Positions 41,282 to 64,000 of a stretch of DNA of 64,000 nt are shown here, in pieces. Position 1 is the first letter of the stretch. Each line of letters starts with the position of its first letter. The stretch spans positions 7,066,992 through 7,130,991 of the forward strand of contig JAJEKV010000058.1 of the NCBI GenBank assembly GCA_021234155.1, given 5' to 3'. The translations under genes were made by a program, and so were the position numbers. A model generated the notes under the pieces. The model had not been told where the DNA came from and did no database searches. It saw only the letters and a list, made by a program, of their open reading frames with translations. Source of the DNA: Isoetes taiwanensis. Taxonomy: Eukaryota > Streptophyta > Lycopodiopsida > Isoetales > Isoetaceae.

Positions 41282-41344
41282 CCTACTGGTGCACTTGAAT
41301 TCCCTTCCAATTCTGACCTCAATATGGATATGCATGTCGGAACA

Positions 41345-41351
41345 TATTTAT
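41345..41351 (-). promoter_or_regulatory. Possible TATA element of SS1
   Basis: Minus strand ATAAATA lies 64-70 bp upstream of the ATG at 41281. A start site about 30 bp downstream would fall near 41320, between the two candidate start codons, favouring the ATG at 41281. The motif is common in AT-rich DNA, so this is weak evidence. Confidence 0.3.
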
Positions 41352-41409
41352 CTACAGCGGGAAAGTTTCAAAAGACAAAGATATTGTGAAAGAAAAGTCT
41401 TGGACTAAA

Positions 41410-42398
41410 GTCGAGCATTATTGAGTTATTCATCAATAATCAATATCCTTTTTGTGGCATGTGGTGTTGCCAACGATCATCAATTTGTGAACATTATGCT
41501 CCATTGTTATGTGGAGGAATGGGGCATAGGTCATAGGTTCTATGCCCCTAGTATATACTTAGGTTTTGCAATCCGTTGATATACATTTGATGCTTCATCT
41601 AAGGTAGAGGAAACTTACTTGTGGAAAAAAACATTCCATTAGGCTTTTAAATGAAAGAAGACAAATTGTTGGCCGCCATGACTAAGGGGGTGAAAGAGGA
41701 CAAATAATGTCCCACCACAACAATCATGTCTAATAAGTTTGGGCCAAAGCATCTTTAACTTTCATCATTTGTATTCTTCCTATGTCTACTTGGCTTCCAT
41801 AAAGACATTGGTTCATTTAACGACAAAAATAAGTGATTCTCGTTTGGCAAGAAGGTTATAGTTATTCATACCCAAATCTAAGCATTTTGTATTTAGGCGT
41901 ACCTTTTACATCATAGAAGACAACGTGCATATTTTAGCACCAAGCCTAACCATTCTCAATTTAGTTGTACCTTCATATGTTATGTGAAGATATCACCACA
42001 TATTATACAAGTTTTTGTACTATTAATGGACCTATTAGTCATGGTTTATGAAGATCCGAGATAAAATCTAAGCTTAAACATATCAGTACCTAAAGTTGAG
42101 TGTCAAGAATTAAGTTAGAAGAAATCAATAATAGTGGAAGTTGGATCGGTCAATTGTTCTGTCACACAAATGGGAGTATACATCTAGACTAAAGTTGTGA
42201 AATTTTGAGTTAAATCCCTTGCCTGATAGCCATTTGATGATCATCTTCAAATAGGAACTAATATGTTGCATTGCACATTCCACTCCTAATTCCATTGTTA
42301 AAACACTAATCATGTCATCCCTTAGCCTATTAGAAGATTCTCTAGCAGATGTACTATAAGAATTATACGAAATTGACAGATAGTTTGTGATCGAGATT
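41410..42398. other. SS1 upstream region, no other feature seen
   Basis: AT-rich, no open frame of note up to the LTR start at 42399. It presumably holds the SS1 promoter. No element I can name specifically. Confidence 0.35.
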
Positions 42399-43966
42399 TG
42401 TGACGTTCCACATATTTATACGCATATTTAAGTATAAATACATGACACGTCACTATGAATAATTTAATGGCACATTAATTATTCATAAGCTAAGGTTAGC
42501 TATGTTAATAATTAAATTATAAAGGTGGAAACCTAACCCAAAACCCTAATTCGAATTTAGGGCTTATCCTAACATTAAAAAGGGCTAAAATACCAAAGTA
42601 GTTAATTAATGACATGCCACTTGGCCCAAATCGATTGGGCAAGGCAGGGTTTCCATTTTGGACACCCAAATTAGGGCTTTTGTGCCCCAATTCGAATTAG
42701 GAGCAATTGGAGATGGGGGAGGAGGAGCGTGCCCGGGCACCCTTGACCAAATCGAGATTGAGCCATCCCAAGCCCGATTGACCCGGTTAGTCGTAGCTTA
42801 GTTGTGTTATTCATGAGGGGCGCCCTGTTGGGCACTTGTTGTGTGTATTTCTTACGTTTCTCTCGTGTTCTCTATGCTTTTTACCAGTAGGAACTAACCC
42901 TTGATTGCAAAGGTGAGTTCTCCTTATCTCGATTACGTACTTGCTCTTAAATGATGGATTAATAGTTCTTTGCATAGTATTACTCTTGAAATGGGGGAAT
43001 TAAGGGGGTAAGAGACCTCCCGAGCCATGTTTATTAGTATGCTCCTAGGTGGATCCCTCAGTATTTCCCATTATTGCGACCTGTGCACAAGAGACCACCG
43101 AGTCGTGGATGCTATGGAATTGCTTAGCACCAGATAAGGGACGCAGTGGTGAAGTGGGGGTGGGGTCTTGCACGAATATAAAGGCTCCGAGACTCCTACT
43201 GGTGGGCTAGGCACGATAGCCTGGTCACGAGAGGGCCGGGTATGGGTCCGACACTCCTCGGGTGCGGAGGTGTGACCCGTATGGGGCACCCCGTGCTTTG
43301 AGTAGATTAGGGTGAGTAAGTCCGCACGGATGGGGGGCCGATGCGGCATGTATTCTCTAGCTCACCCATGGAACCACTGTGATCCTGGAAGGGGACACTT
43401 CTCTGATCTGCCTCATTGGGCGGGGCTTCATGAACCCTGGAGTAGGCTTGAAGGGTGATACCTTGAGTCTGCGTATCCGGAAGGCTATAGTGACGACATA
43501 GCATGATTGGACTCATCTGCAAAGTGTGCACAGGAGGGGCAGATGGAGTGGACAACCCTAGCCAATGTTCTATGCCAGCCAACGCCATGCCAAGATTCGG
43601 TCTGCTGATCTCTTGAGACCTAGCCGTCAGTCGATCCTCACTGGAGTCTGAGCCGGGGTAGAACCTGGAGTTTGGGGTGTTTTCCTTAGGATTAGATGCA
43701 TCTTCTTTGCCTTTAGTACTTGGATGGGATGGGTTATTTATATATGATTTATGTTGTGTGCTAACATGTATTCACGCTTCCGCAACTTAGGAGTCCCATT
43801 GAAGGCGTGGGCCGAATGACACCTCCGTGTCCTTCACCCGGGCATCTCTCTACGGATGGTCCGAGTTAGACGGAGGGCCCTGCTCATGGTGAGCTGATTG
43901 CCATGGGAGGGGGAAGTCCCCATATGTATACGTCCAGAGCGCCGTATATATTCAGGGAGCGTCACA
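42399..43966 (+). mobile_element. LTR (about 1.57 kb) of an LTR retrotransposon
   Basis: The sequence starts TGTGACG (42399) and ends CGTCACA (43966), a perfect 7-bp terminal inverted repeat with TG...CA ends. One base after the end lies a tRNA-Met-type primer binding site. No gag or pol follows on the plus strand and no second LTR is visible, so this is a left LTR plus leader of an element whose body was lost, or the body is too decayed to see. Confidence 0.75.
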
Positions 43967-43967
43967 G

Positions 43968-43980
43968 TGGTATCAGAGCC
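43968..43980 (+). other. Primer binding site (tRNA-Met type)
   Basis: TGGTATCAGAGCC is the usual plant LTR-retrotransposon PBS complementary to the 3' end of initiator tRNA-Met, placed 1 nt after the LTR end at 43966. It fixes the LTR boundary and the element's plus orientation. A short frame from an ATG at about 44210 could be a gag start but stops after about 16 codons. Confidence 0.8.
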
Positions 43981-44429
43981 ATGATTTTGGTTGACCGGAA
44001 TCATAGCACTGACCGAACCCTAACTCGTTAGTTCGGTAGTTAGGTGGAAGTTTAAGCTAGTGTGATTGTTTAGCTCTTTGATGTTTGGGTTTGTGCTAGG
44101 TTGATGTAGTAGATTGTAAGTTTTAAGAGGTTTAGGGCAACTGAAGGACCCAAGTTTGGAGGGGCTATAACTTTTTGTAGGTAGTTCAGATGAAGGCGAA
44201 AGTGGTTCCAATGGATCGGGCATACCCAAATACCCTAGGAGGGTCATTAACAGGCGGAAAGGAGTAAGGAGGGGCCCCGAAAGTTAACTCGGGGCGCCGC
44301 TTGGTTTTTATCGACTTACAGTCGTGGTAGAAACGCGTATAATGCTGTCGGCGCCCGACCATATAAAACGCGTATTTCCGCCGTATAAAAATTTTAGTAT
44401 TTTTTTATACACATAATTTTTTGATGCCT

Positions 44430-44500
44430 CGACCCAGATTTGAACCCATGAGCTCTCAACTCCAAGCCTAGATGCTTACAACCACACCAAGCTCTCTTGT
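44430..44500 (-). repeat. tRNA-like pol III promoter module
   Basis: Minus strand A-box-like GAGCTTGGTGTGGTTGTAA (about 44495-44477) and B-box-like GGTTCAAATCT (44446-44436) in tRNA order and spacing. No closed acceptor stem. SINE-like remnant. Confidence 0.4.
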
Positions 44501-44559
44501 ATGTAATATTATACATTTATTTCTTATACATATGTGATACTTTGTTTTCTTTGCATACG

Positions 44560-44622
44560 CAAGACTTGAACCCTTGACCTACCAGCACACAACCAAACCC
44601 TTTACCAACACGGTAAGCCAAT
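44560..44622 (-). repeat. Second tRNA-like pol III promoter module, same orientation
   Basis: Minus strand TGGCTTACCGTGTTGGTAAAG (A-box region, about 44620-44600) and GGTTCAAGTCT (B-box, 44572-44562). It lies about 125 bp right of the previous module in the same direction, so the two may be parts of a dimeric SINE or independent relics. Confidence 0.4.
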
Positions 44623-46722
44623 AGTATCCTTGGTTCTCTAGAAAGACTCATGTCTACCATCACTCTTCTCTAAACCAACGCTGTGGCGGCAACAACTCCG
44701 CCGGACTTGTGCAACCATGGTGAGCTAGAAATCACTTAGGAGTTATTATCATCATTACGGAATGTCTCCACAACCATATCGACATACGTTCACGCTGAGC
44801 GATGGGACGGAATTCCTCGGAGTAAGATAGAAACTTCCAAGTTGGATTCTAATCCACTACTCACCTGGGATATTCTTTGGGCGATGATAATAATGTCCAG
44901 TTATCGACGTTCCTAGACCTATAGCTTTAAATATTTTTCCTTTGGTAAATGCCTTGATAACAAAATTTCTTTGAGCCTTGCCATGATTCAATCTATACTA
45001 CATCCATATGCTTTATACTAGACCTTATTCAACGTTATATATTAAGGGTTAAGAAATATCTTATAGACATAATTACAATTAACGTTGTTTCTCTCTAGTG
45101 TCTACGCCTTGACTCGTTTCATTTCCTAGAGAAAGGATCTTTCTTCGCCCAACCAACTAGGGACTGCCATGCAGCACCCCTCTAGACCATGGGTTTGGAT
45201 TCCTTTGATCCTACCACCCTTCAATACTTCTTCTCAATGGTCGTGTTCTTCTTATGGACCACTTCCCCAGATCGCGACACATACTCTGTAACACGTAGTA
45301 AGTGCTTGTGTTAGAACCCCCACAACACTTTATTCTAATTAATCCTGGGTACAAACTCTAGTATTATTTTGTGCCAAACCTCACCGCCTATATGGCTGTG
45401 ATTAATTAGCTGCGCCACGCATATGTCAGATTGACAGCAGCCTACCCTCTTTTGGGGTTCTTCCACCGTAAGGGTCAAGTGGTATCCAACCATTGTTGAC
45501 TAGTCACCTCCTTCTAGGGTATCTAGATATGGTTGGGGCAAAATATTTCCAACCATTCCTTTAGTGCCCAAATGGCGTTAAGTTCCACAAATGAACTTAC
45601 ATATTCCAAGGGGTTATGTGAATATCCCAAAGGACAGCACCACCCGAAGACCCCTCAAGATAGGCCTCCTCTATTCAGAGATTTTGTGTTCAAGTCTCTG
45701 GGGGTCCGTCATATGTCCTCATGGACGCTGCCAATGTGGCATGACGTATAAATGCTATCTATCTATCTATTTATTAAAAATGTCCTTGGTGAATTCAATT
45801 CACCATCTTGTCTTAGGACATGGAAGTCTTCTTCCCTACGCCATGCACCAAATCTTTAAAGAGTTTTTCAGCTCTTGCTGCCTTTCAAGCCGCAAGTCTA
45901 TCTTTGTATATTAGCAATGACCACCCTTCATGTTAGGTAATAACCTTCCTACCCAGGTCGCTAGATATCATTAATAAGGGTCCTTTATTCCTCCTCTTCT
46001 TCTCGATTTTCAGTATTCCGATCCTTACGCCTGCCACAGCGTACACCCTTCATCCTTTGGTTGTGACCTTCATTCAGTAGAGTCACCAATCCATTGACTC
46101 CTTCAGGTTCGTTAACTGCCTTGTGGCTTCTAAGCCGCTATTATATGGCCCCTATATTGTTAACCCACCTATCATTGGGATCTAGAAACATTGGTTTGGT
46201 TATGTTAGACAACACGAACCATATATTATTATATAGAATTTAAAGTTTGATCAATTTGATTATCTGACCTAAAGGCCAAGTCTTAGTTTCATATTGTCCA
46301 AGCTTTGTACTCTTTTCATTAAGTTTGGTAATGTTCTAGGTTGTTCTAGCCCATTGTATGGGTCCCATGGCCTATCGATCTCCATGATGGCTTTGTGTAG
46401 CAGGTAGATACCTAGCCTTTTGAGGAAATTCCTTCTGTTATACATAACTATGACATCTTGAGCTCTGCTTGTTTCTGCAGGTGGTTTGTTATTAACATAT
46501 CTCGGGTATTCAAATGGGCAAACGCAGTCATAGTTGTAGCTATTTCTGAAAACAATCTTGAAGATATTATTTCTAAGTATGAACATATATCTGAGTTGCG
46601 ATTATCAAAAATCGAAAATGCATAAAAATTTAACATTCCTTTCTTTATCTCCTTCTTCGACAAAATTGTCTCTTGCCCACAATCTCCCCCTCGAAAATCT
46701 GTGGTTAGAGGTTTGGGCGAGG
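44623..46722. other. No recognisable gene
   Basis: About 2.1 kb of mixed composition with short frames only. The minus frame 46269-46586 is open for 105 codons but has no motif I know. Confidence 0.35.
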
Positions 46723-46755
46723 GAATAGAATAGAATAGAATAGAATAGAATAGAA
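46723..46755. repeat. (GAATA)n microsatellite
   Basis: About six to seven perfect pentamer units. Confidence 0.9.
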
Positions 46756-47079
46756 AGTTATGGCATACATGGACGACTGAGAAATGCTTGTGAAAAGAAA
46801 GCTTTTAGCCATATTAAGGAGATTTCTTTTCCTGCAAAACAACTAAAAAGGGTTGAAGAGGAGGGGCCCACACACAGACTGTTGATCATATGGATATGAA
46901 ATTTTTCTAAGGTAAGCATGAGAGCATGTCGATCTTAGGCATCTAATTTGAATCGTAATCTACTTGTACTCGCTAACGATTATCCCTTGCTCCAAATGTT
47001 TGCTTGGAAGACGTCGAAAACTAAAAATTCATCTTCCTTCTTTCTATTAGCTCAGCATTCATATAACACCCAAAACACT

Positions 47080-47700
47080 TTCAAATAAAGCAACTGATAG
47101 ATGAGACAATTGAATCGGTGGAGTTTATGGTTAGACAAGGAATTCCAATCAATAGAACCAATGCAAGTTGTGTTATGTAGAATTTTGAAGAATACAAAAA
47201 TCTTCATTTAGGTAAGAGAATGTGGTTAGTTCTTTCCATTGGTGGATTTCAAGTAGATCATGTTCTTAATGATCATCTAATTCGAACATTCTTTTATCAT
47301 GATGCTTTTGGAAGCTAATCGATTATTCAATGACATCTCAAAGTCAACTGGATATATACATGGGCAACAATTCTTTGTGGACATGTTAAGATTGGACAAC
47401 GTGTAACTACGCTTGAATTGTGCTATAGAATGGAAATGAGCCGCAAGATTGACAAGCATCTATATTTTACAGTTTTGAAGGCATATATTATATCTAAAAA
47501 ATTTTGCAAGGAAGGATAATACATCTGCATTTCATTGAATGTGGGTCAGATATTGCTGTAAGAAGCAAACTTGTAGACATGTATAGAAAATGTGAAGGTC
47601 TCATGAAAGCATGCCTACTTTTTATAAACATGCCCAAGAGGAATGTGATCTCATGAAATGCATATTACATTATATGCACAACACAGAAAAGGTTTAAAGA
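47080..47700 (+). pseudogene. PPR (PLS-class) pseudogene, left part
   Basis: Shifting among plus frames, the sequence reads LHLGKRM..SIGGFQVDHVLNDHLI, then TWATILCGHVKIGQR, LELCYRMEM, AVRSKLVDMYRKCEGLMKAC and NMPKRNVIS. These are successive P, L and S repeats of a plant organellar PPR protein. Multiple stops and indels disrupt it. The order continues at 50990-52060 on the other side of a minus-strand LINE, so both pieces probably come from one gene. In life such proteins bind organellar RNA for editing or processing. Confidence 0.75.
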
Positions 47701-47799
47701 AATAGGAAGAAAGAGATACAATAGTGGATACTAAAATAAAATAAATTAATAAGTCATGCCCCTTTGAACCTCAAGGGTCATGGAGCAGCAACACAATAC

Positions 47800-50700
47800 T
47801 TAAATAAAAGATTTGTGTGCATGTCTACCTCTTTATTGTAACATCTTAAAACCTTTTTTTGATTATAGCATACATGATACTGCTCGCGAATATTTTCAAA
47901 AGAAGGACAATATAATAAACTATGAGCTTCATCTTCAACCTGCTACATACCACAAAGCAAAAAAAACACAATCTCCCTTCTTTTGGAATCTTAGCCTGCC
48001 TCCCCGACTCAATATGCAGTGAGCTCGATCTAAATCAAGAAATTACCTATTCCAAATGTGGAGATATATGAGCATGCAAGTCATTTTGACAGGTATAGAT
48101 TAGCATCAGGTTAATGTCATTTTGATAAAAAGCAAGCCTCGAATCCTTTATTGTCCAAAGCTTATCTATAACTAGAGATTGTATCAAGTCCTGAACTCCT
48201 ACAATTGTAACCCGTCACTTTCCCTCAAAAATACTCCATTTTCCTGCCCAAGACATCACATCCTGATACCATTAGTGTTCGGATTCAAGCCCATCTTCGA
48301 TCACCTGCCCTCATCCAATTTTCTCAACCTATTTACAAAATTAATTGTTAGGTAAAGAGCATTTGCTTCTAAAGGTATCATGCCAGGCTCAGCTAACATA
48401 ATTGCAAAAGAAGTTTGTGATTTAACACCCAGCTCCTCATATAAAAAGATTTTCAATATGGATTCAAACTGACGAGGGCCCCCAAATCAGAATGCCATAC
48501 AATAACACAGTCTGCACTAGTGTTTTGAAAAGCATTTTCTTAAGTCTAAAAGTAGTGAAGGAGGCTTTTATGACACCTAGAAAGCATTCCATGAAGGGCT
48601 TCTCTACCACCAACAAGCCTCTTATGCCACACACATTCTTTCCACTTAAATTTTGATAGTACCTCCAATCCCAAATATTTACAGTAATTAACCGTTTCAA
48701 GGAGCTCACCTTTGTAATAGAATGTTGATGCCTTAGAAGACGCAAATATCATTATTTTGAATTTGCGCATGTTTACCTTCATTGTGCGCGTCACAAAAGA
48801 ATTCCAAATTATCAAGGTGTTTATGGAGACCATCTGAATTTTCAGAGGTAAGCACAACATCATCAGTATAAAGAAACAATTGGAAAACAGAGTATTCTAA
48901 ACACGAACATGCCTATCGTCTTACTCTCAACCACTCTTCTAACTCATCAATGTAGAGTCCAAAGAGGGTTGGAGAGAGTGGACAACCTTGTTGGACTCCA
49001 ATTGTACTTTAAACCTCTGTTGGTAATTGAGCTGATAGTTTTGCAAATAACCTCTCTAAGAGAAGAAGGAACTCCAAGACATTCCATGCATGCATGAAGA
49101 CCTTCTCGAGGCACTGCATCAAAGGCATTCGAGCTGTCAGTAAAGAGTCCTTGGCTTTCTTGCCTGCTTTATAAGCAATCTCAAGCTAAGCAAATGATCG
49201 AGAGTGCTATGTTTCTTTTGAAATCCAGCTTGGGCACCAGATCTCTTACTATTAGTATCAGCCCAATCACTAATTTTACTTTTCAATAATCCATCTAGTA
49301 GCTTAGAGAAAGTGTGTCCAACCATGATAGTGCGATATTTGTTTTATATCGTGTTTGTCCCCTGACTTATAAATCGAAATAACCCTGCATTCCTTCTAAG
49401 CTTTTGGCAATCCCTGCTGAACTTCAGCATTTAATGGCTGGTAACTATGTGGATGAGTTCCTTACCACCCCCTTTTTATCGATTCAATAAAGATGCCATT
49501 ACTCATATTCTTCAATTGACAATGCACATTTTCACAAGAAAACAAAATCTTTTATGACATCTAGAATAGGCATGCAATCTAAATTCTCAATATAGTACAA
49601 AGATTTCACAAAATCGAATAAAGCGTCCAAACCAAATTTATCCTAATCAGGCTTATGCAACAAGCTTTTCCAAAAAAGCTTAGATCTTGTTTAAAACAAA
49701 GATCATAGCTCGTCTTCTTTCAAAGAATATATGCTTCTTATCTCTAATTAGATTCCTAAACCACTTGAGTTTAAAACAACAATTTTTTGGAAGGCGAGCA
49801 CGGAGCACGGGCATCACGACATTCTTCATCCCACTAACCATTGCATGGTCATCTAGTAGGAATTCGTTTTTTGGTGCATCCAAAAGTGAAGCAAGAATGC
49901 ACAAAGCAAAATGTCAGAAAGCAAAGTTGAATCATTTTCTAGCATGCCAGTCCATTGCACGCCTCAAGAAGCTTGCTAACTTTCTTCTTGTAATCTCTAC
50001 ACTCAAATTAAAGTCTAATTTGAGTTTAGGCTGATTGTTTTATTTTCTGCAAAATCCAGTTCAATTCAAAAAGTAAGCTTGCATGGTCAGACTCTAGAAC
50101 TTTATCAAGCACTTTTAATGTTTGATGACATTAGATGTTGTTGGGGTGAAAAGGTAATTCATCGTACTCTCACCAAGATGAGAAAAGCATATAAATCTAT
50201 CCGATCTTTTGAATTGCTTATATCATTCAAGATCTATAGTCCACGTTGTGCCAAAATCTTTTAGAAAGTCACCCATGGTACTATTGATCTTGTCTAATGC
50301 TTGCCTTTTGAACGTCTCATTTATCTGCTCCACAAGTCTCATATCATCCAAATCCTCTACTACATGCAATAAAATCCTCAACCACAATCACTTCTCCCTT
50401 ATCCTATAAATGCATCACATCCAAATTCAAATCATGAAATGAATTCTTTTTGTCAAACCCAGCCTGCTCATATACTTTCATGTTCAAAGGTGAAAAGTAA
50501 CATACGGCAATGTAAATTGCTGAATTATTAAAGCAAATTTGCAGCCATATAAATTGTTTCCCTTCATGCTTTTTGAAGACTTACACGACTTGCTTGTATT
50601 CACGCCTGATATATGTAGCTGAATCCAAAATCCCCTTCCCACGTTTGCTTGTTTGACATTCCAAACCGAATCTACAAGGCAATACCCTTCCAAATTAGGA

Positions 50701-50985
50701 AAGGGACGAGTCTGGTGTTCCCAACTTTTCTCCATTAATATCAAGTCAGCTCTATTACAAATCTCTTTTGTAACCTTTTTGCTTGGTTAATGCCATGAAC
50801 ATTCCAAACTAATAATCTCAAGGTCCATTCCTTAGTCCATTCTTTGTTTACCTTAGTCCATTCTTCCTTCCTAGCTTCCAATCATGCAGGAGTTAAGTCT
50901 GGATCAATCCAGATCTTATGGCCTTTAAAGGAAGCCCTATTATGTAATACTTATTTCTTGCTTCCTCGTCCTTCAATTTGACAAG
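47800..50985 (-). mobile_element. Near full-length decayed LINE (endonuclease, RT, zinc C-terminus) inside the PPR pseudogene
   Basis: On the minus strand, in order: an ORF1-like end (ILVKLKDEEARNKYY near 50985-50930); an EEP endonuclease start (LRLLVWNVHGINQAK near 50820) and ADLILMEKSWE; RT fingers QAGFQKKHSTLDHLLSLRLL (about 49240-49160); FYYKGELLETVNYCKYLGLE (about 48720-48650); VLLYGILIWGPSS (48475); and a VEDEAHSLLYCPSFENIREQ-like zinc-knuckle end near 47930. Frames are broken many times, so it is old and inactive. It belongs to a different LINE lineage from the zf-RVT copies elsewhere in the window. It lies antisense to the PPR gene it interrupts. Confidence 0.8.
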
Positions 50986-50989
50986 AATC

Positions 50990-52060
50990 GGCCTAGTCTT
51001 TAGAGTTTTGGAAGCTTGTGCAAACATGGAAACAATAAAGAACGCACAACCAATCTATGACATGATCATAACAAGCAAATTGGAGTCGGAATCGTTGGAA
51101 GCATCTTAGTAGATATATATGCCAATTTGAAGGAAGGACGGAAAGTTTTTGAAATTTTGCAAAACCAAAATGTAGTTTCATGGAATGCAACGATTGTTGG
51201 ATATGCGCAACATGAAGAAGGTGTGCATACATTAATTGAGCAGATGTAAAAAGCCTATATTAGGGAAAATGGAATCACATATTTAAGTATTCTAGGAGCA
51301 AGTGGCAGCATAGGAGCAATTGAAAAGACAGGCGTACCGTGACTAAATAATTCAAAAAGAAATTCAAGTGGATTTCATCACATGTGTCACATTTGTTGAC
51401 ATGTATGCCAGATGTGAAAATTTGGAAGGGGCATCTGATGTTTCTCACAAATTACCACACATGAATGTGGTTGTCTAGGGTGCAATAATTAGAGGATATG
51501 CTCAACATGACGGCCACATGGCTGTAGATTGTTTCAAAAAGATGTTGCAGAAAGGTACAATGCCAAACAACATAACTTTCACGAGTATTTTGATCATATA
51601 TAATCAGACGAGTTTAGTAGCTGAAGGCTGCCATTAATGGCATTACACCAGGCATTGCTCATTGTATGAGCATGGTGAATCCCTTAGGCCATTTTGGTTG
51701 TCTGAATGAGGCAGAGGTCCTCAATTCCATTAGATAGACTGAGATAATGGGTTGGATGTCCTTGCTTAATTCTTGTAAGCTATATGATAATCTGCAAATT
51801 GGGAGGAGTTGCTTTAATCATTTTTTTTTTTAGATTCTAACTATGCGGCAGGATATGTGCTTGCAAACATTTTGAAAACTTGCAGCCACATAGTTTCTGT
51901 CGAGTAAGGTAGGCGCATTTATGAGCAATTGTAAAGGGGCAATTTGCATTCATTGTGGCTGAGGGACCTGAAGATGCCATCTATTAGATGGAGGCAAGAT
52001 TTCAGAATGTAAAAGCAACTTATACACATAAGAAACAAAGCATCTTGGCTTGATACCCTG
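50990..52060 (+). pseudogene. PPR (PLS-class) pseudogene, right part with E-domain
   Basis: Plus strand begins FRVLEACANMETIKNAQPIY. It continues LKEGRKVFEILQNQNVVSWN, ATIVGYAQHEEG, TCVTFVDMYARCENLEGASD, IIRGYAQHDGHMAVDCFKKM and PNNITFTSIL. It then enters an E-domain-like part, GHFGCLNEAEVLNSI, MSLLNSCKLYDNLQIGR and NYAAGYVLANILK. Stops and frameshifts occur throughout, with a T-run at about 51822. The end is reached shortly before another antisense LINE fragment at 52070. The E-domain indicates an RNA-editing type PPR ancestor. Confidence 0.85.
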
Positions 52061-52069
52061 ATGGCAATA

Positions 52070-53020
52070 TCATAGAGTTACTTCAATCTGTGGGCAAGAA
52101 TCCTGTGGCAACAATGCAGCAATACGAGTCCAAATTACTCTATCCCATCTGTACAATAAGAATTTTGTTTTAAATGCTTCCCATGACATGAGATGACCAG
52201 ACTCATACCAAGCTGCAATAGTGCTTATACCAGCTGTTATCCATTGTCTTTGTGTCTTTGGATTACCAACAACACTTAGAGGCACATTCCCAAGAGTGTC
52301 ATGCAAAGGAATCCACTAGTATGGAGTAGTCAGACATAGACCTGACAGTGTCCCAAGCAGCAAACAATGCCTTTAGAAAGGGAGAAGCATTAGGATACAT
52401 ATGTATATGATAAAGCAATGCCCAAGGAAGGAGAGGCTTAATGGTGCCCTTATAAAATGGAAGACAATGCTGAATCGATTGCATCAGTAACCTCAGGCCA
52501 GGAGAATCATCCTTACCCATGAGAATCCTCCAAATAAACTTCGATATCATCACCTTACTTTGAAGGTGAAAATTCAACATTCCAAGACCACCAGATGCCT
52601 TAGATTTAATGCACTTCTCCCAAGCTACCTTGACAACAACTCCTACTTCATTTCCACCCCAAATAGAATTCCTAACGATTCACACAATCTCCTCCATCTT
52701 ATACTGAGGAGCTAATAGAGCAGATGCCATGTTGACATGAGTATTACTAAGAATACATTTAGCCACAGTGATTCTTCCGAGCATGGATAGTTTAGTTGTA
52801 TTCCACCAAAATAAAGTGCTTTTGCAACCCTGTAATAATTTCATCCCAAGCATCTGAACGAAGAGGTGAATTTCGACAGGAAAACCAAGCAACTTCTTGG
52901 TATTTCCATGTAGAAGAATCTTCCATGGATAGACCAGAATACAGGGAGGGATGGGACTGTCCAACGCCCATAAAGCAGTATACTTTCGCCAACGAGTGTC
53001 ATAATGGTTAGTTGGCACGT
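52070..53020 (-). mobile_element. LINE fragment (RT thumb and zf-RVT upstream region), both ends truncated
   Basis: Minus strand frames 53018-52680, 52580-52299 and 52306-52070 align in order with the LINE at 16.3-15.4 kb: TALWALDSPIPPC, FWWNTTKLSMLGRITVAK, LNFHLQSKVMISKFI, WYESGHLMSWEAFKTKFLL. The YADD palm and the C-terminal zinc region are both missing, so it is internally bounded by breaks. It adjoins the end of the PPR pseudogene and may be a second insertion into it. Confidence 0.8.
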
Positions 53021-54148
53021 AGTGTTTGCATAACTAATGATGATGCCTATCATTGGCGAGCTTATGGTGGGTATGTCTTGAAAACATATCATACGTTCAC
53101 CCTAGCTTTCTTTTACCCATTGAATGAAACTTATGTCTAATATCCTTGTTGTTTTAGATGTTTGCAAAATACATACTGCAAGTCAAATTATTATCTGCAA
53201 TGTGTATGAAACCTCCACTAGTGATTTTGATAGGTGTAGTGGACACCACGCATTGATCTAATTTTGCTTTTGAACTTTCGCTTGCAACAATTTGGTATTG
53301 CAATGTGCTAGCTACATGCATGATGCAATGAAACGTTGTGCTTCACCACATTGCTCATATATTAAATACCTTTAAGGACTTGAACGCCTTGAGTTTCCAC
53401 TGTAATTTTTTTGAAAGAACATATACATGTGTCATATGATGGCTCCTTTTTAGGTAGCATTATTTGTGGAATCAGATAGAATGCAGATTTTACAAAGGTA
53501 GGATAATGACTAAAAGGAATACGAGATGGTCCCTCTAGATTCAGATACTCTAATGGTTGCATGAATGGAAACCTTATAAGGGAGCCCAATTTTGTGGAAA
53601 CCTCACATGGATTGCTTTCTTTGGCCTGATTTCCATGATCCATTTGCAGTTTTGGATAGCATCGATGGCAGAGCCGACTTCATCAGTGGTTTCTCGTCAA
53701 GTAATTGATATTTCCAGAGATGTAGTGAACTTCCAAAGATGTTTCTTCTTAGATTAGCTAGGAATTCAGAGGTCTCTAGGTGTGCCGATAAAGAAGACTG
53801 GCCCAAAAAGAAATGGACTGCAGCCGAATTGAACCCTAAGTTTGGGGCATTGATCTTAAACTTGCTGTAGTTTTTTATTCAATGGGTTCTTTCTTTCACC
53901 ACTGTGATAGATTTTCTACTTTGAGGTGTCGTTGCATTGTGTTCATGAATGCTATTAGATAGGAGTTGGAGGCTCTTTTGTGTTTGTGTTGCACTGCCAT
54001 TGCATTATGTTGCACTCATAAGAAATTCGGTGGTGAAGGCCCTGCTACGTGTACAACATCGGCACTCCTATGTATGGAGCCATTGATTAAGATCCAAGAG
54101 CTAAAGACAATTTTGAGTTTTCTTTAATAGTTCAAACTCAATAAAAAA
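53021..54148. other. No recognisable gene
   Basis: Open frames near 53362-53806 on the minus strand have no known motif. The sequence up to the Helitron end at 54149 is unremarkable. Confidence 0.35.
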
Positions 54149-54176
54149 CTAGTAATGGTGCCTGACGTTGCCGGGC
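54149..54176 (-). mobile_element. Helitron 3' terminus, third copy
   Basis: Minus strand GCCCGGCAACGTCAGGC (54176-54160, imperfect stem), then ACCATTA and CTAG (54152-54149) followed by T. Same layout as 11666-11693 and 34506-34533, with a decayed stem. No helicase lies upstream on this strand, so it ends a non-autonomous or truncated Helitron. Confidence 0.7.
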
Positions 54177-54309
54177 TTTAGCTACAACATATGATGTAAA
54201 AATGAGATAGAAGATCATTAGATTTGAATTGGATGGCATTGAGTTGAATTAAATTGGATTGAAATGAATTGAATTTTATCATCCACGGAGACCTTTGTGA
54301 TTTACAAAT

Positions 54310-54870
54310 AGTAGAGAGTTATTACCTTGAGTTGGGCAATATGTTGTTTCTTTGTTGAGAAAAGTAGTCAAAATCTTCTTTCTTAAATGCTCAACGAATA
54401 TACAGTGTTGGATAAATGTCAATCCATGCAATTACAAAGAGAAAATGTAGTACCTTGAGTTGGGCAATGCAGTTTCATATTGTTTGTGGCACTTGCATTG
54501 TGGAAGCTGCTCTTTGGATTGAGCCAGGCTTTATAGAGCAATATGTTGCTTGTTTGTAGAGAAAAGTAGTCAAAATCTCCTTTCTTAAATGTGTGCAACG
54601 AATATATAATGTTGGGCAAACATCAACCCATTCAATTACAAAGAGAAGCATATTATTACATTTGAATTTGGCACTGTAATTTGAGCAATGCAAGAATCCA
54701 ATCCAAATGAAAGATGAAGTAAATAGAAATGTATGACAATAAATTGGGTAATACGTTCAACAAAAATAGTCAAAATGCATGCAAAGAATGTTCATTGTTG
54801 GGTAAACATCAACCTATGCGTTACAAAGAGAACAATGTGATTACCCTAAGTTCGACAATGAGTTTGATAG
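54310..54870. repeat. Three diverged tandem units (about 200 bp)
   Basis: GAAAAGTAGTCAAAATCT, AACGAATATA..TGTTGG, AA..TCAA-CC-ATGC-ATTACAAAGAGAA and TACCTTGAGTTGGGCAAT recur in order from about 54340, 54540 and 54745. They lie inside the presumed Helitron that ends at 54149, next to its terminus, where such arrays are common. Confidence 0.7.
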
Positions 54871-56084
54871 TTTTTGTTTCCAATATGGGTCCTTTTGACT
54901 TTCTCTTCTCTTCTTTTTGCTTTTTAGAGAGAGAATGATGAAATTGGCTTAAAGGTGACCATTTTGGAGCAACTTTTCGAACTTCTCATGTGCATGGTGA
55001 TGGATTATGAAGTGTGTATGTGATGGAGGTGTTTACATGGTGCATGAGCATGAAATATGGAGTGTGTGAGATTTGACCTAGGGAAAAGGACTTTGAGGTA
55101 TGGAAATAGGAGGAATGGGATGAAGAAAGGATATGAGGTGTGAGGATGGATGTGAACAATGCCTTCTTGAGCCAAGAACTTTAAGATAATGTTAAGATCT
55201 CAAAAAGTGACAAAATACCATATTCTTGGGGGGTCTTCCAATCTTTGAATAGGGGTCTTCTCTCTTTGACTTTTCCTTTAGCCTTTGACTCGAGACTTGA
55301 TTCCTTTTGCCAACTTGGATGTTCCTTTTAATGTTCTCCATTGGTCTTCAACATGGTGCTATGACTTGTCTTCATATCTAAACAATGAGCTCCAAAAAGG
55401 AAGGTCTTGTACATGTGACTTGGTCTTCTTGTGATTTCTTGTGAAGTTGTTCTTACATGCTGCCAAAACGTGGCAGCATCATGCTAAGCAAATAGATGGA
55501 GTGTGAAATGGAGGTGGTATTTTTCAAAAGAACTTGCCAATGTGGGAAATGGTTGGTAATACTAAGGGATAAAGAGTGTGTACGGAATCAAGGATGATGG
55601 AAAATAGGCTGTTTGAGTGGTCAGGTGAATATGAATGAATCAAGTGATGGACCTGCATGACAAAATGATAATCTTGTTAGAAATGTGACTGCCATGTGGA
55701 GGTATGGTGGCAGTTTCATCCAGGTTTAAAGGAAATGGAGATGAGAAGAGGGCATGTGATGGATTTTAGCCAACTTTGAGCAGATCATATGTTTGTGAGT
55801 GCTTTGAAGGATGAACCTGCATGGTAAAGTGTGTGACCTGCTATTAGTTTAAGCATGTTTGAAGCTCTGTTTGCTGTTTTTTTGAGAAGCACACATGGTT
55901 AGGAAGCAAGGAAAGTACTGTTGCATAAAAAACGTAAACATAGGCCTAACTAAGTCTGATCTAACAACTCAAACATACAAATGAACCTACAACTACCTAA
56001 TTTCTGTAAATAGGACTATTCAAATAGACTCAAGGCAACATGCTGTTGCCAGTACCTCTTTAAGTGAAGGATATTGAAGGGATT
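54871..56084. other. Region downstream of the gypsy integrase, no gene; LTR not identified
   Basis: On the minus strand this is where a 3' LTR should lie. I cannot match it to the sequence beyond the gag end (61454-63180), and no polypurine tract or TG...CA pair stands out. It contains repeated GAAATATGGAGTGTGTGA-like words near 55010-55070. Confidence 0.35.
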
Positions 56085-57290
56085 TCACAATTCTTGACCA
56101 TCAGTGAGGTCCTTGAGCCAATAAGACTCCCTGCCAGCTTCACCAATGACCTCATAGGGCCCCTCCCATAGATTCTCAAACTTTCCTGCAATCTTTTCCC
56201 TGGCCTTGTTCCATTTTAGCACGAGTTCTCCTGTTTTTATGGTGCCTTGTACCCTGTGAGCAGCATTGAATGATGTCGTATCCTTGGCTTTCTTCAACAA
56301 GACTGCATTTTCAGCATCATACATGTGCTCTTCAAGTTGCATCAGCCTAATGAACCTGTCTTGCAAAGCATCTTCCATTTTGAGGTTAATAACATGTGAC
56401 ATTCTTAAAGAAGGCAACTCTAACTCTATAGGTAGGACAGATTCAATGCTATAAACCAAACTGAATGGGGTATGCTTGGTAGCATGCTTTGTGGTGGTTC
56501 TGTAGGCCCATAATGCATCAATTAACCTTAAATGCCAATCCTTCTTAGACATGCTCACTATTTTTTGCAGAATTGACTTAAGTACCTTGTTTGTTGACTC
56601 AGCCTGGCCATTTCCTTGAGGATAATATGCTGAACTCTTTGTATGCTTGATCTTGAGGGTGCAAAGTAGGTTGTCAATCACTTCATTGACAAATTGTGAA
56701 CCTCTGTCTGATATTAGCTTTAGGGGAATGCCAAATCTGGCACAAATGTTTTCATGAAGGAACCTGGCTGTTGTCAAGGCATTGGCTTGTCTTAATGGCA
56801 CAGCTTCTGCCCATTTTGTGAAGTAATCAGTAGCTACCAATATAAACTCATGATGAGTAGAAGAAGGAGGGTCTATAGGACCTATAAAGTCTAATCCCCA
56901 GACCTGGAAGGGTCCTGGAGATGTTATGGCTGTCAGAGGAGCAGGCTGAAGGATCCTTTTCCCAAAGATTTGGCACTTGTGGCAGCTTCTGATGGTTGTA
57001 AAGCAGTCTTTGAAGATTGAGGGCCAATAGTAACCTGATCTAAGTATCTTTTTGGCAGTTGAGTCAGCAGCAAAGTGGCCTCCACATATACCCTCATGGC
57101 AGGCTTTTAGTACCGATCCTGCTTCAAACTTGTCCACATATCTTAGTAAAATGCCTTCTTTATTCACCCTGCACAAAACATCACCAATTAGTCTGAACTT
57201 CTTGGCCTTGTATTTGAATCTCCTATGCTGGCTCGAGTTGTGATTCTTTGGCAGTTCTCCTCTTTCAAGAAAGTACCTAATAGCCTGTTG
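56085..57290 (-). pseudogene. Gypsy integrase domain
   Basis: Contains the HHCC zinc region (CHEGICGGHF ... SCHKCQ). The DDE core has all three acids: WGLDFIGP (first Asp), LISDRGSQFVN (second Asp) and GNGQAESTNK (Glu). A C-terminal WEGPYEVIGEAG segment follows, and the frame ends DLTDGQEL. The frame is joined upstream to the gypsy RNase H in the same phase, separated only by a TGA at 57291-57293. Integrase inserts the cDNA into the host genome. This is the best-preserved part of the element. Confidence 0.92.
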
Positions 57291-57918
57291 TCAGTCTTCT
57301 TCTTCAAGTAGGCCAACTGTGGCCTCTATGTCAGTGCTATCTAGATCTTCCAAGTCTTCATGCTCAAACAAAACATTAGTGAGATAAGAACTAGGATCTT
57401 TAAATTTATGAGTTACCTGGATGTCTATATCATAATTCTGCACTTTGCAAGCCCACATGCATAGTTTGGCTTTCTGTGGTTTCTTTGCAAAGAGCAGGGG
57501 CAGTGGATTTTGCTTCATGAACACTTGAGTTTTGCTGTTTTGGATCAGGTGTCCCTGTTTGTCAAACAAAAACATCAGAGCTGCTGCACTTTTCTCAAGT
57601 CTGGCATATCTCATTTCAGTATCAGACCAAATCTTGCTGGAAAAGGTCACAATGTTGTTGCATCAAAGCAAGGCCTATAGCCTTCTTGGTCACATTTAGA
57701 TAGGCTTGAAATGGTTCAGACAAGTTTGGTGGTTTGAGCAAGGTTGATTTGCAGATGGCTTTAATGATTGCCTCAAAGGAAGTTTGGCAGGCTTCTGTCC
57801 ATTCTACAGGTATGAACTTACTCTCCTTATTTGAGAACTTTCCTCCCTTGGTCAAGCTTGTGATAGGATAGACTGTATGAGAGAAGTGTGGCATGTACAT
57901 CCTTAAGAAACTTGTCAT
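57291..57918 (-). pseudogene. Gypsy RNase H domain (after RT)
   Basis: The first frame (57918-57622) has the RT connection FLRMYMPHFSHTVYPITSLT and VEWTEACQTSFEAII. A frameshift near 57640 leads to FSSKIWSDTEMRYARLEKSA and the later CKVQNYDIDIQVTHKFKDPS. This is the standard gypsy-type RNase H that removes the RNA template. Together with the separate domain at 58880-59280 the element carries two RNase H domains. Confidence 0.8.
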
Positions 57919-58005
57919 GCCTAGAAAGCTCTTGACTTGCTTGATGGTTTTGGGTGGTGTTAAGTTCCTGAGGGCTTGAATCTTGCTTTCTGCTACCTGG
58001 ATCCC

Positions 58006-58782
58006 CTAATCTGAGACTTCATGCCCAAGCAAATCTCCTTTGGAACAGAAGAAGATGCATTTTCTTGCGTTTAAGCTTACTCCTCCTTTCTTGCACAGAG
58101 AACAGAGTTGTGTGAGGTATGTCATGTGATCTTTTAGCGTAGAATTGACACAAAGATCATCTAAGAAAACTCTGAACAAACTGGGAGCCATATCCTTGAA
58201 AATGGTGTCCATTGCCCTTTGAAATGTGGCAGATGCATTCATAAGTCCAAAGGGCATTCTCTTCATGGCAAAAGTTCCCCAAGGTGTGACAAAGGATGTT
58301 TTGGCTTGGTCTTCTTCCTTGATACTGATCTGGTTAAAACCCGAGAAGCCATCCAAGAATGAATAAACCTCCTTCTTTGCAACTGCCTGCAATACTTCCT
58401 CAAGAAAAGGCAAAGGATAATAGTCTTTTATTGTTGCTTTGTTTAAATCCCTATAATCAATGCGTATCCTAATGGTTTTGTTCTTCTTTTCAACAGGCAC
58501 AATGCAAGACAACCAATCAGGATAAATGATTTCTTTTATGACTCCATCATCCTTCATTTTGAAAAGTTCTTCCCTAATAAGATCTAATAAAGAAGTGTTA
58601 ATTCTCCTAAGCTTTTGCATAACTGGTTTTGATTTTTCTTTTATCTCAATCTCAAATTCACAAACATTCTTATCTATTCCTAACAATTCCTTGTAATCCC
58701 AAACAAAAACATCATTCCAAGTATCAAAGAAGCTTACAAATGCTTCCCTTTCTTCTTCTTTGAACATGTCTCCTACATACAA
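58006..58782 (-). pseudogene. Gypsy reverse transcriptase
   Basis: A 258-codon frame with VCEFEIEIKEKSKPVMQKLR, RIRIDYRDLNKATIKDYYPL, YSFLDGFSGFNQI, FVTPWGTFAMKRMPFGLMNA and the catalytic box VFLDDLCV (DD intact). A TAG at 58006-58008 stops the frame, which resumes downstream in phase (GIQVAESKIQALRNLTPP). Confidence 0.92.
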
Positions 58783-58879
58783 GACCCTATCTTCACCTTG
58801 ACTTCCCTTACCTCCTTTTCAGAGCTTGCATTGATTACCAAGATAGGATAGAGTTGTTGAAGTTCCTCATCCTCCAGAT

Positions 58880-59280
58880 CTTCCTCCTTGATGGCTCCTT
58901 CAGCTAGATGCTCCAAGAGCACATCTCTGCATAGGGAAGCTGCCTCAGAGTTTAGTTCTCTTGGTATGTGCTGCAGTTTCTATTCCTCCAATGCCTGATC
59001 CTTGAGTTTTATCATCTCCTCATGCTTTGCCTGGTATTGTCCTTCATTTTGCCTGCATATGAGTTGAGAATCTCCAAAGACAACAAGGTTACTCACACCT
59101 AGATGGTTAGCTTCTTGAAGTCCTGCAATCAGTGCCTTGTATTCTGCCATATTTGAAGTTAGATTCTGATAGATTCTTCCTACCTTGGCTAACAATCTGT
59201 TATCTTTGTCTTTTAGGATTGCAGCACACGAAGCTATACTTAATTTCTTTGACACACCCCCATCAAATCACATGTAAGCA
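58880..59280 (-). pseudogene. Archaeal-type RNase H upstream of reverse transcriptase
   Basis: From about 59270 on the minus strand: FDGGVSKKLSIASCAAIL (first catalytic Asp, preceded by a TGA where Trp is expected), TSNMAEYKALIAGLQEANHL (Glu), LVVFGDSQLICRQ (second Asp), YQAKHEEM and then LQHIPRELNSEAASL, where the fourth catalytic Asp is Ala. A stop at 58980 splits it. This is the extra aRNH of plant Tat elements, but there it normally follows the gypsy RNase H. Here it lies between protease and RT, in the same orientation and with short linkers. Confidence 0.85.
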
Positions 59281-59407
59281 CTCATTACCTTTTGCATACC
59301 TTTGTGCACTTCCAAGGGCAGGTTCTCCTTCTAAAAACTTCCTTGTGAGCTCCAAGCTGTGTTTTCTTCTCTGATTTTGACAAGCTACTCTCCAATTTGC
59401 CTGGGAA

Positions 59408-59984
59408 TCAGCATCTCCTCTTGAATAAAGTGGTAGGATTCATATCACCAAGTTTGTTAAAAAGTGTAACAGTTCTTTTTCCATCTAAGATGGTACATTC
59501 TCCCTTTGACAAAACTGGTCTTGCATGCACGGTTGATAGCCATCTTCTTCCCAAGAATAAGTCATAAATTTCTGACTTTTCATTAGCTCCCTCAAATGCC
59601 ACCACAACAAAATTTGCAGCTACTTTGATTCCTTCAATATCGAGTTGTTACATCATTCACCATGCCTAAAGGATTGATTCTTGAGTTTGAGAAGGATTTT
59701 AAGATCATAATGGCCTTTTTGTCTACTTCCAAACCACTAAGTTTCATGATATGATGTGGCATGACATTCAAAGGTGATCCTCCATCTAATAATACTTTGT
59801 TTAGGACCCTGTTACCAACTTTTGCAGTGCAGGTGAAGGCACCAGGATCATACTCTTCTTGTTTTAGCATTTGCTCAGCTATATGGTTGGTAAAGACAAC
59901 TTGCTCTTCTCTGGTGAGGTTTACTTGTTCTTCCTTAGACATATCCACAACTTTTTCTCTATAAGAAGGAGCAATTTTGAACAA
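59408..59984 (-). pseudogene. Gypsy aspartic protease
   Basis: Frame 59984-59634 has FTCTAKVGNRVLNKVLLDGG followed by SPLNVMPHHIMKLSGLEV. This is the DGGS variant of the protease active site common in plant gypsy elements. After a frameshift, 59605-59408 continues with VAFEGANEKSEIYDLFLGRR and WLSTVHA. The enzyme cleaves the Gag-Pol polyprotein. Its separation from RT by the aRNH is unusual. Confidence 0.85.
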
Positions 59985-60217
59985 AGTCAGTAGATCTACA
60001 CTAACTTTGGCATTTTTGAGCAGGTATTCAAATTCATCACTGCCCTTTTCAGAAATTTTTGATAGGGAGGAGGGGGTACAACCTGATTCTCGACTTGTTT
60101 TTGTTTTTTAATGTCTGGTTCATGAAGCTCAATCTCTGCCTCCTTGCCTTTGGCGTTGAGGGCTCCTCTTGTGTGCACAGCCATGATTTCTTCTTCTCTT
60201 TCAAAGCTTTAAGCTCC

Positions 60218-60676
60218 CTAGTACAGTGAACAACTTTCTTCTTGCAAGAATCTGATGGAGGAAGAAACCTCAGGTCTTGAAAAATATCTTTCTTCCTGCA
60301 AAAACTTAACAGAAGCACTTGGCTCACTAGCCTTAGATTTTTCTTGCCTAGCAAAATATTCTTTGACACTATATTTATCTTCATAGTGTCCTATAGCTTT
60401 GCAGAAAGCACAAAGGGGACACTCTTTACCATAGTACCCCTTCTTACCACATTTTAGACACGTCCTATACCAGCAATAGTCTGAATAATGGGTGTTTCTG
60501 GTGCAATGAGTACAAGCTGGATAAACTCTCCTCTCTGGTTGGCTGGCCTTCATTTTCATGAGTTGTTTAGTGACCTCAGCCAAGGCCTCAGTGACGTTGA
60601 GATCTGATCTCATGTCTGACTCAGAGCAGTCTGCATCATCAGTCTTAGGCTTCTTTTTTTTCTTTTTGGATGGCAT
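60218..60676 (-). pseudogene. Gag C-terminal part with three tandem zinc knuckles
   Basis: CTHCTRNTHYSDYC is a complete CX2CX4HX4C knuckle. CLKCGKKGYYGKEC follows (His replaced by Tyr), then CAFCKAIGHYEDKY (last Cys replaced by Tyr). Knuckles bind viral-type RNA in Gag. Most plant gypsy Gags have one or two; three close copies suggest duplication, with the second and third now inactive. A Lys-rich run starts the frame. Confidence 0.8.
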
Positions 60677-61453
60677 AGACAGGTATCAGAGCAGAGCCTA
60701 TGTATTCTTGGTCATAATCAGGGAAAAAAGGATCATTGGAAGCCTGCAAGTCATCAGGAAGGTAGGCTAGCATTTCAGAGGCTTCAATGGATCTTGTAAA
60801 AGCCTTATTTATGGTGTCAAAACCTTCTTGCTTGTGCAGCTTCAGCATTTTTCTGTAAACTCGAGGTCTGCTGCTTAATCCCCTTATAAAAGAAGCAACC
60901 AAATGCAAGGTATGGTTAGGCACCTTGTGCACTTGGCGCTTGGTGAGATAGCAATTAAACCTTTCAACATATTGGTGAATTGTTTCACCATTTTTTATAT
61001 GAAAGTTCTGCAGTTCAAAGACCAAATCTTGAGGTTCAAGAAGTCTACCAAACCTGGCTAAGAACTTCTTGACAATCTCCTCCTAGGTGTACTAATCACA
61101 TATTCTAACCAAGCTCTAACCTCTTCATTCTTAAAGCATTTCTTGAATTCAGCAAATTTACCTCACTTTTTGTAGCCATACTCTTAGTAGTATTCTTCAA
61201 AGGTTCTTAGAAAGTTATTGGCATTGATGCTTGGGTCAAACGTAGGAATAGGAGTAGGAATATTGAGTTCAAAAAATGTGCAAGGCATGCTTGAACCATT
61301 TGGTAGGGTAACATGTGGTATTGAAGATGGCTCAGGGTTTTCTGGTCGCTCAGCATGTTCAGTAGCATCAGTAAATCTCCTAGGAGCCATGAGTTCCAAG
61401 ATCCAAGTAAGATCTCGGTAGAACCTCCAAGATGTTGAAGGTATTTCTGGCAA
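60645..61453 (-). pseudogene. Gag N-terminal part
   Basis: Frame 61453-61184 contains MAPRRFTDATEHAERPENPE and FDPSINANNFLRTFEEYY. Frame 61025-60645 has FHIKNGETIHQYVERFNCYL, LVASFIRGLSSRPRVYRKML and AYLPDD. The second stretch is the retrotransposon gag domain (UBN2/Retrotrans_gag type). A frame break near 61050-61180 separates the two. The Met codon of MAPRRF (about 61390) is a plausible gag start. Confidence 0.75.
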
Positions 61454-63180
61454 ACCTTCAACCTCAGTGGTTAAGAACCTCCAGGTTGCTTAAGGCAACC
61501 AATTTGTGGCTAACTTCCTGCACAAATCAACTCAAATTTGCTTGTGAACAAGCTATCCCTAAACAAGAAAAAACTGTTTACAAAATTTTGATTGCCAAAT
61601 GAGATGGGAAGATTATTTTTTGATATGAACACTTTGCAATAGATCCTCAGAAGTTTCTAGAAGATTCCTGCATAGGTCAAAGGCAAATGGTTAACCAAAA
61701 CTAGGTGAAAACACGCCTTCTGACTAGGTCAATTTTTGGTCAATGGAACTGGCAGAAAGCTGAAATTTGCAGATGAGAGAGTGGGAAGAATTTTTTGGAC
61801 TTTCTTTTTATGACACACTCTGACAACTCTGTAGGACATGTGCATCAGGTCAGAATAACAAAAAGATTGCTACTATGTGCTAAGATGTAATTTTCTTGCA
61901 GGTTTTTATAACAGTCTGTAACAGAGTTAAGAGATGAGTTTTTGAAGCAATGCTTAACACAATTTTTTGACTTTAATGACACAGGAAAATTCACAGGAAT
62001 TTGGCACAGGAAAATTCACAAAAGGTAGGAATCAAAGGTAATATATGACTTCAAAAGATAATATAAGACTTTATTGCATCAGATCTTCAAGAAATCTGAC
62101 ACAAGGAGGCAATGCAGGACAAACAAAGGTCATTCCTTAAGTAGGGTGTTGGATCTGATCACTTAAGGCGCTGTGGTGCTCAAAAAATCCCTGAAGCTTG
62201 ACTGTTCTTTTAAACCTGACAATTTCTGGTCGGTTCTTGGTAAAACAGGGTCAGATCTGGCTTCTTCTGCCTGCTAGACCTGTAGAATATTAGTTGAGGT
62301 GTTGTAGCCATGATTGCTACACTGGTACTGTAGAAATTGATGTCCCCTTTTCGAATAAACCCCCTGTGTGGCTCGATTCTTATCTCTGACAGCATCAAAT
62401 GGAGTTTTAACTGTTCTCAGCAAGGTTCTTGGCATGAAAAAGGTCAAATCGGGCCGGTTTGGCCATGATTTGCCTGTTAGTTAGGCTAGAATTTCGGATC
62501 TTGGCATGAATTTTTTAGGGTTCTTGAAAAAACAAGAATGAATATCCCACAGGCTTGCAGAAAAAAGGAGGCTCGGCGGATGGTCCAAAAAATGATGTGG
62601 ATTGGGGGTGGGGGGTGGGGGCGCAATAAAAACCATTTTTTTGCATAAGTGAAATGTGGCACGAACCCCAAGGGCTAGATGTGGTCAAAATGAGAAATTT
62701 TGACCACCTTTTTGTATATTTTTTTGTGGGCCTTCAGGTGGAAAAATCAAAATTTGAAAATAGCCAATTTTATTTTTTGGCCTATTTTCCATGGTGTAAA
62801 AGATGATGTGGCATGAGGGTGATGACTTGGCAATGGTGATGATGTGGCATGGTGATGTGGAGGGTGAGGTGTCAAAGAAAGTTTCCCTAGGTCAAATCTT
62901 GATGAGGTGGAAAAAAGTGTGAATGACACGTGTGAGGTAACTTGGTGATGATGTGGATGAAGTGTGATGATAGGATGGTGAGGTGGCAATAAATTTAGAC
63001 CGTTTAAAAAAGAAATTGATCATACCACACGTGGCATAAATTTAGACCATTTAAAAAAGAAATTGAACAGGCACATAAAATGTACCCTTTCATTTTAACA
63101 TGGCATATGCGTTTCGATTTGCAAAAGCAAGTTTGGATGGGCGAGACTCCATTTCTTGGCATTGGGCGGTGTTGTGGAAA
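61454..63180. other. Presumed leader/5' LTR side of the gypsy element, boundaries unclear
   Basis: Minus-strand upstream of gag. AATAAA occurs on the minus strand near 62075 and a G-rich run near 62607-62625. No pair of LTRs can be matched by eye. A 29-bp near-exact repeat (AAATTTAGACC..TTTAAAAAAG) lies at 62991-63019 and 63038-63066. Confidence 0.35.
62991..63066. repeat. Two-copy tandem repeat (29 bp, one mismatch)
   Basis: Copies at 62991-63019 and 63038-63066, each preceded by GTGGCA(A)T. Possibly inside the former LTR. Confidence 0.75.
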
Positions 63181-63182
63181 CA

Positions 63183-63340
63183 TTTTTGGGTTGCCCCTAA
63201 GGGGTCAAGCCCTCGTTGAGGTGGGTTTGTAGCATATTTTAGGTATATGCCAGTATATACCTAGAACATACCAATGACTGCTCCAAACCCGTCATAGCCT
63301 GTAAAATGGCGGTTGCCCCTGTTGCTGGAGAGGCACTGTG
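63183..63340 (-). repeat. Dispersed repeat, copy 2 (partner at 25030-25185)
   Basis: Reverse complement shares TTTACAGG, GTTTGGAGCAGTCA, the hairpin AGGTATATactggcATATACCT, CTACAAACCCAC-like and TTAGGGGCAACCCAAAAAT with 25030-25185. The hairpin arms co-vary between copies (GGTATA/TATACC versus GGGTATA/TATACCC), consistent with selection or origin as a stem. Confidence 0.65.
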
Positions 63341-64000
63341 GAAACCGTGCATGCAACACCTTGTTTTCATAGCCGATTCTGCCGACTCTGCTACAGGTGC
63401 AATGCGGGTGGATCCAAGCTTCTCATGGTGGATCAAAGTAAGTTCTTCACTTTATATTTCTATAAAATGCGAGCTCCATACCTCAGAAATAAAACCTTAG
63501 GAACTGCACAATACTGTGCTGCCGCAATTGAGACGTAATTGAAGCAGCCATCTCAACCCGACACCTAAAAAAGACAGCAAGCTGAAGCTAGGTCGAATTG
63601 ATCTAATACGAGGGAAGCAATGCAGGCCTTGCATTTTTTGTCCTTCTAGGCCTGTCGCCATGTTATCTGTAGGTTATGTAGGAGTAGTATTGCTTCATGG
63701 TGGTTGCTGAACATGCATTGCCATCCAGAATGAATTTGCCATGCAGGTTAAATATTGCATGTTGCATAGATCTGCCACGGATCCAGGTTAAAGGCATAGA
63801 TTATCATCTATCCTAGACGATTACATTTGAGAATAGTTTATCTCATAATTTACTGCCTGCATCTTGTACAACCCCCCCACCTGACCTGGCACGGATCCAG
63901 ACCATACAATCTGCAAATCAAGGGCTGATGTAATGCCATGTCAGAGGGGGCTGCAAAACGAAGACTACCCGGGTTGAAGACTTTCATGTTTAATATTTCA
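63341..64000. other. No recognisable feature
   Basis: Plus frames at 63306-63538 overlap and have no motif. GATCTGCCACGGATCCAG-like words occur near 63770 and 63889. Nothing further can be supported. Confidence 0.35.

Follow-up and report, generated by a model that had tools for sequence, protein, structure and literature searches.

The window, by which we mean the whole 64-kb stretch of DNA analyzed here, carries on its minus strand a Ty3/gypsy element with gag, reverse transcriptase (RT), RNase H, and integrase in order (Table 1). Pfam searches placed the domains on this one strand in the order gag, archaeal-type RNase H (aRNH), RT, native RNase H, and integrase. The aRNH is directly upstream of the Ty3/gypsy RT, and the native RNase H, then the integrase, come after it, which bears out the sequence-only reading that an extra RNase H precedes the RT while a normal gypsy RNase H follows it. 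That reading had also set the aRNH between a protease and the RT. Its place between gag and RT was recovered by Pfam, whereas the protease was recognized by motif and position, neither of the two protease-region pieces giving a Pfam protease match. With the LLDGGS motif, which we take to be a protease signature, a protease between gag and the aRNH is probable. The Retrotrans_gag match scored 24.9 bits, marginally above the cut-off of 24.1, and no Pfam gag match was found on 60221-60685 or 61187-61489. At the other end of the element, resemblance to the integrase C-terminus extends, by eye, beyond the stop at 56085-56087. Neither the native RNase H piece 57294-57662 nor the integrase piece 56088-57290 gave a Pfam match to RVT_3, and no aRNH was found between these two domains.

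Table 1 Features of the Ty3/gypsy element, with their positions in the window.
Feature	Coordinates	Strand	Evidence
Gag, several frames, with a cysteine-rich, zinc-knuckle-like region	60221..61489	-	Pfam Retrotrans_gag 2.3e-5 on 60648-61082; cysteine motifs by eye
Probable aspartic protease, two frames (LLDGGS...; YDLFLGRRWL...)	59411..60107	-	Motifs and position
aRNH, N-terminal and middle part (FDGG, NMAEYK, GDSQL)	58983..59267	-	Pfam RVT_3 1.9e-15; PDB 3hst, 3aly, 2ehg, 4e19; NCBIfam RNase HI models below cut-offs
C-terminal part of aRNH (HIPRELN...), then a linker to RT, past the stop at 58980-58982	58776..58979	-	Alignment with 7 archaeal-type relatives
Reverse transcriptase	58009..58818	-	Pfam RVT_1 2.5e-24
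RT connection, then the beginning of the native gypsy RNase H; N in place of the first catalytic D	57625..58005	-	Pfam RT_RNaseH_2 8.3e-9; alignments to L002 and L003; weakly Ty3 in 7q5b (E 0.84)
Remainder of the native RNase H (gypsy type) in another frame; S, K, non-D at the catalytic E, D, D positions	57294..57662	-	Pfam RT_RNaseH 8.5e-11; alignment to L002 and L003
Integrase: zinc-binding domain and core	56088..57290	-	Pfam Integrase_H2C2 1.4e-11, rve 5.6e-12

The aRNH is encoded on the minus strand at 58776-59267. The four motifs by which the sequence-only reading had defined it, FDGG (within FDGGVSKK), NMAEYKAL, GDSQL, and HIPRELN, were all found in one frame of the minus-strand translation between 59267 and 58950, FDGG running from 59267 downward and HIPRELN lying at 58970-58950, directly past a stop codon. 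The definition held: the uninterrupted piece 58983-59267 (95 aa) matched Pfam RVT_3 with an E value of 1.9e-15 (57.3 bits, cut-off 21.6), against 0.0034 (18 bits, below the cut-off of 25.8) for Pfam RNase_H. A PDB search with the same piece returned eight sequences at E<=1, headed by Rv2228c, Sulfolobus ST0753/RNase HI, and 4e19, the last of which is presumably haloarchaeal. Five NCBIfam models also reached E<=1, the top three being one for a bifunctional RNase H/acid phosphatase and two for RNase HI (Thmprot, Halo). All five scored below their full-length cut-offs, as expected because the query was only a 95-aa piece. Judged by these sequence comparisons, the aRNH match is far above the chance level.

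The 68-aa piece past the stop (58776-58979) gave no match in Pfam or PDB on its own, and its HIPRELN stretch aligns with the corresponding stretch in all seven archaeal-type relatives. The aRNH and RT open frames overlap at 58776-58818, and therefore nothing lies between them; as the two are in different reading frames, a frame change separates them in this copy.

An RNase H phylogeny, proposed as a check in the sequence-only reading, was built. The tree held 12 rows: the window aRNH piece, all six relatives from plasmid records (E<=0.01), the single relative from a phage record (E<=1e-5), one PF00075-type RNase HI, both gypsy RNase H sequences, and the window native piece (the first 105 aa of 57294-57662). 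Two gypsy elements from a Limnohabitans MAG assembly served as native-RNase H controls, and no RVT_3 match was found in that assembly. The aRNH grouped with all seven archaeal-type rows, its support of 92/89 being below the tool's starred level; the native RNase H grouped with both canonical gypsy RNase H rows (99/97). Forcing the aRNH to join the gypsy rows cost 6.8 log units, a placement that is less likely yet not rejected (p-AU 0.11). Branches are long, those of both window rows included, and for this reason we give the HMM scores more weight than the small 12-row tree. An additional archaeal-type RNase H, which marks Tat elements, is thus found in the Pfam, PDB, NCBIfam, and tree results.

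The Limnohabitans MAG assembly (L001, L002, and L003) holds Ty3/gypsy integrase and RNase H genes, two of them with open frames of 1834 and 1274 aa; these are probably eukaryotic contamination. Among genome contigs, the integrase query gave one distant relative in nine pattern matches, with 31% identity and in a record of this bacterial MAG assembly. For viral contigs, none of the pattern matches to the aRNH, RT, and integrase queries was confirmed as a relative (0/9, 0/24, and 0/3, respectively).

Catalytic residues were read at the alignment columns that we take to be catalytic. The DEDD catalytic core of RNase H is the one named in PMC10508981. In the native RNase H, aligned with L002 and L003, the D, E, and D positions read N, S, and K. 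The last D is unsure in placement; one alignment gives S at this position and another T, and neither gives D. N in place of the first D appears as well in the alignment to L003 alone and, weakly, in that to Ty3. The E that remains in the native RNase H is the neighbor of the catalytic E column, which reads S. In the aRNH, the first three catalytic residues (D, E, and D) are retained at the columns of 7/7 relatives. The fourth is an A where all seven relatives have D, and the aRNH of this copy is therefore also damaged. By its aligned residues, the catalytic core of the native RNase H appears degenerate in this single decayed copy, which fits the published Tat elements with the extra domain, as does its contrast with the aRNH. 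Random decay may contribute to the native RNase H losses, and lineage traits are not separable from it in one such copy.

The element is an inactive, mutated fossil copy, a point on which our analysis goes beyond the sequence-only reading. The aRNH frame is broken by stops at 59268-59270, directly before the domain, and at 58980-58982, within it. Further stops interrupt the RT frame (58006-58008) and the native RNase H-integrase frame (57291-57293 and 56085-56087), gag contains stops too, and repeated frame changes along gag-pol can be read from the translation. Direct repeats of at least 60 bases were absent from 50000-64000, and a sensitive blastn search for a pair of long terminal repeats (LTRs), comparing 61400-64000 with 40000-56200, returned only an inverted 28-base match (E 0.018) and an 18-base match. 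An LTR may have been lost or may be located outside the window, past its end. An inverted pair of 161 bases (63173-63329 and 25030-25188, 74.5% identical) lies near TATA-like and AATAAA-like sequence on the plus strand, seen by eye, and may belong to an LTR of a different element.

Elsewhere in the window, starch synthase I exons were found on the minus strand at 37938-40767 (best PDB match 4hln, with E values of 6.9e-34 and 1e-19 for two pieces; 37938-38273 by eye), and through these sequence matches they identify the window as plant nuclear DNA. Pif1-type helicase pieces on the minus strand at 35036-36341 (PIF1 2.6e-46, Pif1_2B_dom 4.3e-18) probably come from a Helitron transposon. LINE-type RT or zf-RVT fragments, also on the minus strand, were found at 14944-16625 and 31969-32643 (with one RVT_1 match between them under the cut-off) and at 52302-53033 (by eye). 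The tRNA scan of the window and the Rfam scan at gathering thresholds gave no match.

The order protease, aRNH, RT, RNase H, and integrase had been taken in the sequence-only reading for a different and possibly new arrangement, but it has already been published. The available portion of Neumann et al. 2019 (PMC6317226) describes the archaeal RNase H (aRH) at three positions in Tat elements, the one between PROT and RT being characteristic of TatI from club-mosses and TatII from gymnosperms. The same portion places the domain between the native RNase H and the integrase in the angiosperm Tat elements Ogre and Retand, and the earlier statement that the extra RNase H of plant Tat elements follows the gypsy one is true of these. 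In a survey of 92 green plant genomes, Biryukov and Ustyantsev 2023 (PMC10508981) found aRH-bearing LTR elements in 43, all clustering in the monophyletic Tat lineage, and none in algae, which makes a land plant likely as the host of the window. Structure #2 of that survey, with the aRH upstream of RT, occurred in three club-mosses and all gymnosperms studied; ferns had structure #1 only, and three fern species were without any aRH-bearing Tat element. The authors call the aRH tree unresolved and favor a single aRH acquisition followed by recombination between elements, and the separate acquisition suggested in the sequence-only reading is not needed.

The window element is very likely a decayed Ty3/gypsy LTR retrotransposon of the Tat lineage, structure #2 (TatI/TatII type), with the aRNH between protease and RT. 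We read it in this way because its domain order and the degeneration of its native RNase H match the published lineage. Structure #2 (Tat E, F, G, and J), equal in domain order to TatI/TatII, likewise has the aRNH upstream of RT, a native RNase H with a degraded catalytic core after RT (PMC10508981), and the integrase last. Its published hosts are club-mosses and gymnosperms, whereas the window element is one decayed copy assigned from domain order and residues. Structure #1 (Ogre/Retand of angiosperms and Tat D of ferns) shares with the window element the two RNase H types and the degenerate native RNase H, but has its aRNH after the native RNase H and before the integrase, where none was found in the window element.

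Alternatively, the aRNH could be an unrelated later insertion, such as one from an L1 LINE or from a pseudogene of host RNase H, and lie between protease and RT by chance. The accessible text of PMC5348765 describes plant L1 elements whose ORF2 ends, C-terminally, in an archaeal-type RNase H, and LINE-type RT fragments are present in the window. Against this, the aRNH is on the same strand as the RT, in an open frame that overlaps that of the RT, and zf-RVT matched none of the ten element pieces scanned, nor RVT_3 any of the four pieces scanned from the LINE regions 14944-16625 and 31969-32643. A tblastn search of the 64-kb window with both aRNH pieces returned only self-matches at E<1. A degenerate native RNase H, the published state in Tat elements that carry an aRNH, and a domain order equal to that of a published lineage also speak against a chance insertion, which we consider very improbable.

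The element might also belong to a new gypsy lineage outside Tat that acquired an aRNH independently at this position. The assignment to Tat is drawn from domain order and catalytic residues and not from an RT tree, and the oomycete elements Chronos and Archon gained an archaeal-type dual RNase H independently (PMC10508981). Like the window element, these are Ty3/gypsy elements with an additional RNase H of archaeal type; unlike it, they have a retrovirus-like dual RH, with the aRH beside the native one, and live in different hosts (PMC10508981). An outside lineage is equally improbable in our judgment, given that the aRNH position and the native RNase H degeneration are the same as in Tat structure #2, that the starch synthase I exons mark the window as plant DNA, and that the aRH-bearing LTR elements of green plants cluster within Tat.

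In an intact element of the Tat structure #2 type, the Gag-Pol polyprotein would include the aRNH, which would be released from it or stay within it. The RNase H activity of the aRNH would remove the template RNA strand in reverse transcription, and the degenerate native RNase H would remain beside RT as a non-catalytic tether, an idea taken from the cited papers. Such a pair of tether and RNase H would parallel, by analogy, the retroviral arrangement. We infer that intact copies exist and that their aRNH acts in the reverse transcription complex from its upstream position.

As the domain order of the element is already known, the sole possible novelty is taxonomic. That the host of the window is a fern, as the mention of fern elements in the sequence-only reading presumes, and hence that structure #2 Tat elements occur in ferns, is a tentative judgment on our part, which we hold as possible though rather doubtful, and not a measurement. 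No report of elements with the aRNH before RT in ferns appeared among the literature matches listed, which does not prove their absence. In the portions available, PMC12885004 reports a liverwort with domains named TatI, TatII, and TatIII, labels that give no domain order yet hint that such elements may be more widely spread, and PMC9916801 gives Athila and no Tat for Tmesipteris.

Unless its host is a fern, the element is mostly ordinary. Should the window come from a fern, structure #2 would have a wider host range than published, one that takes in ferns. Ferns would then bridge the club-mosses and the gymnosperms, which would favor vertical inheritance of structure #2 across vascular plants, the sampled ferns having lost it or kept it in low copy number. 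Such a host would also help to show how the extra RNase H changed its place in the Tat polyprotein.
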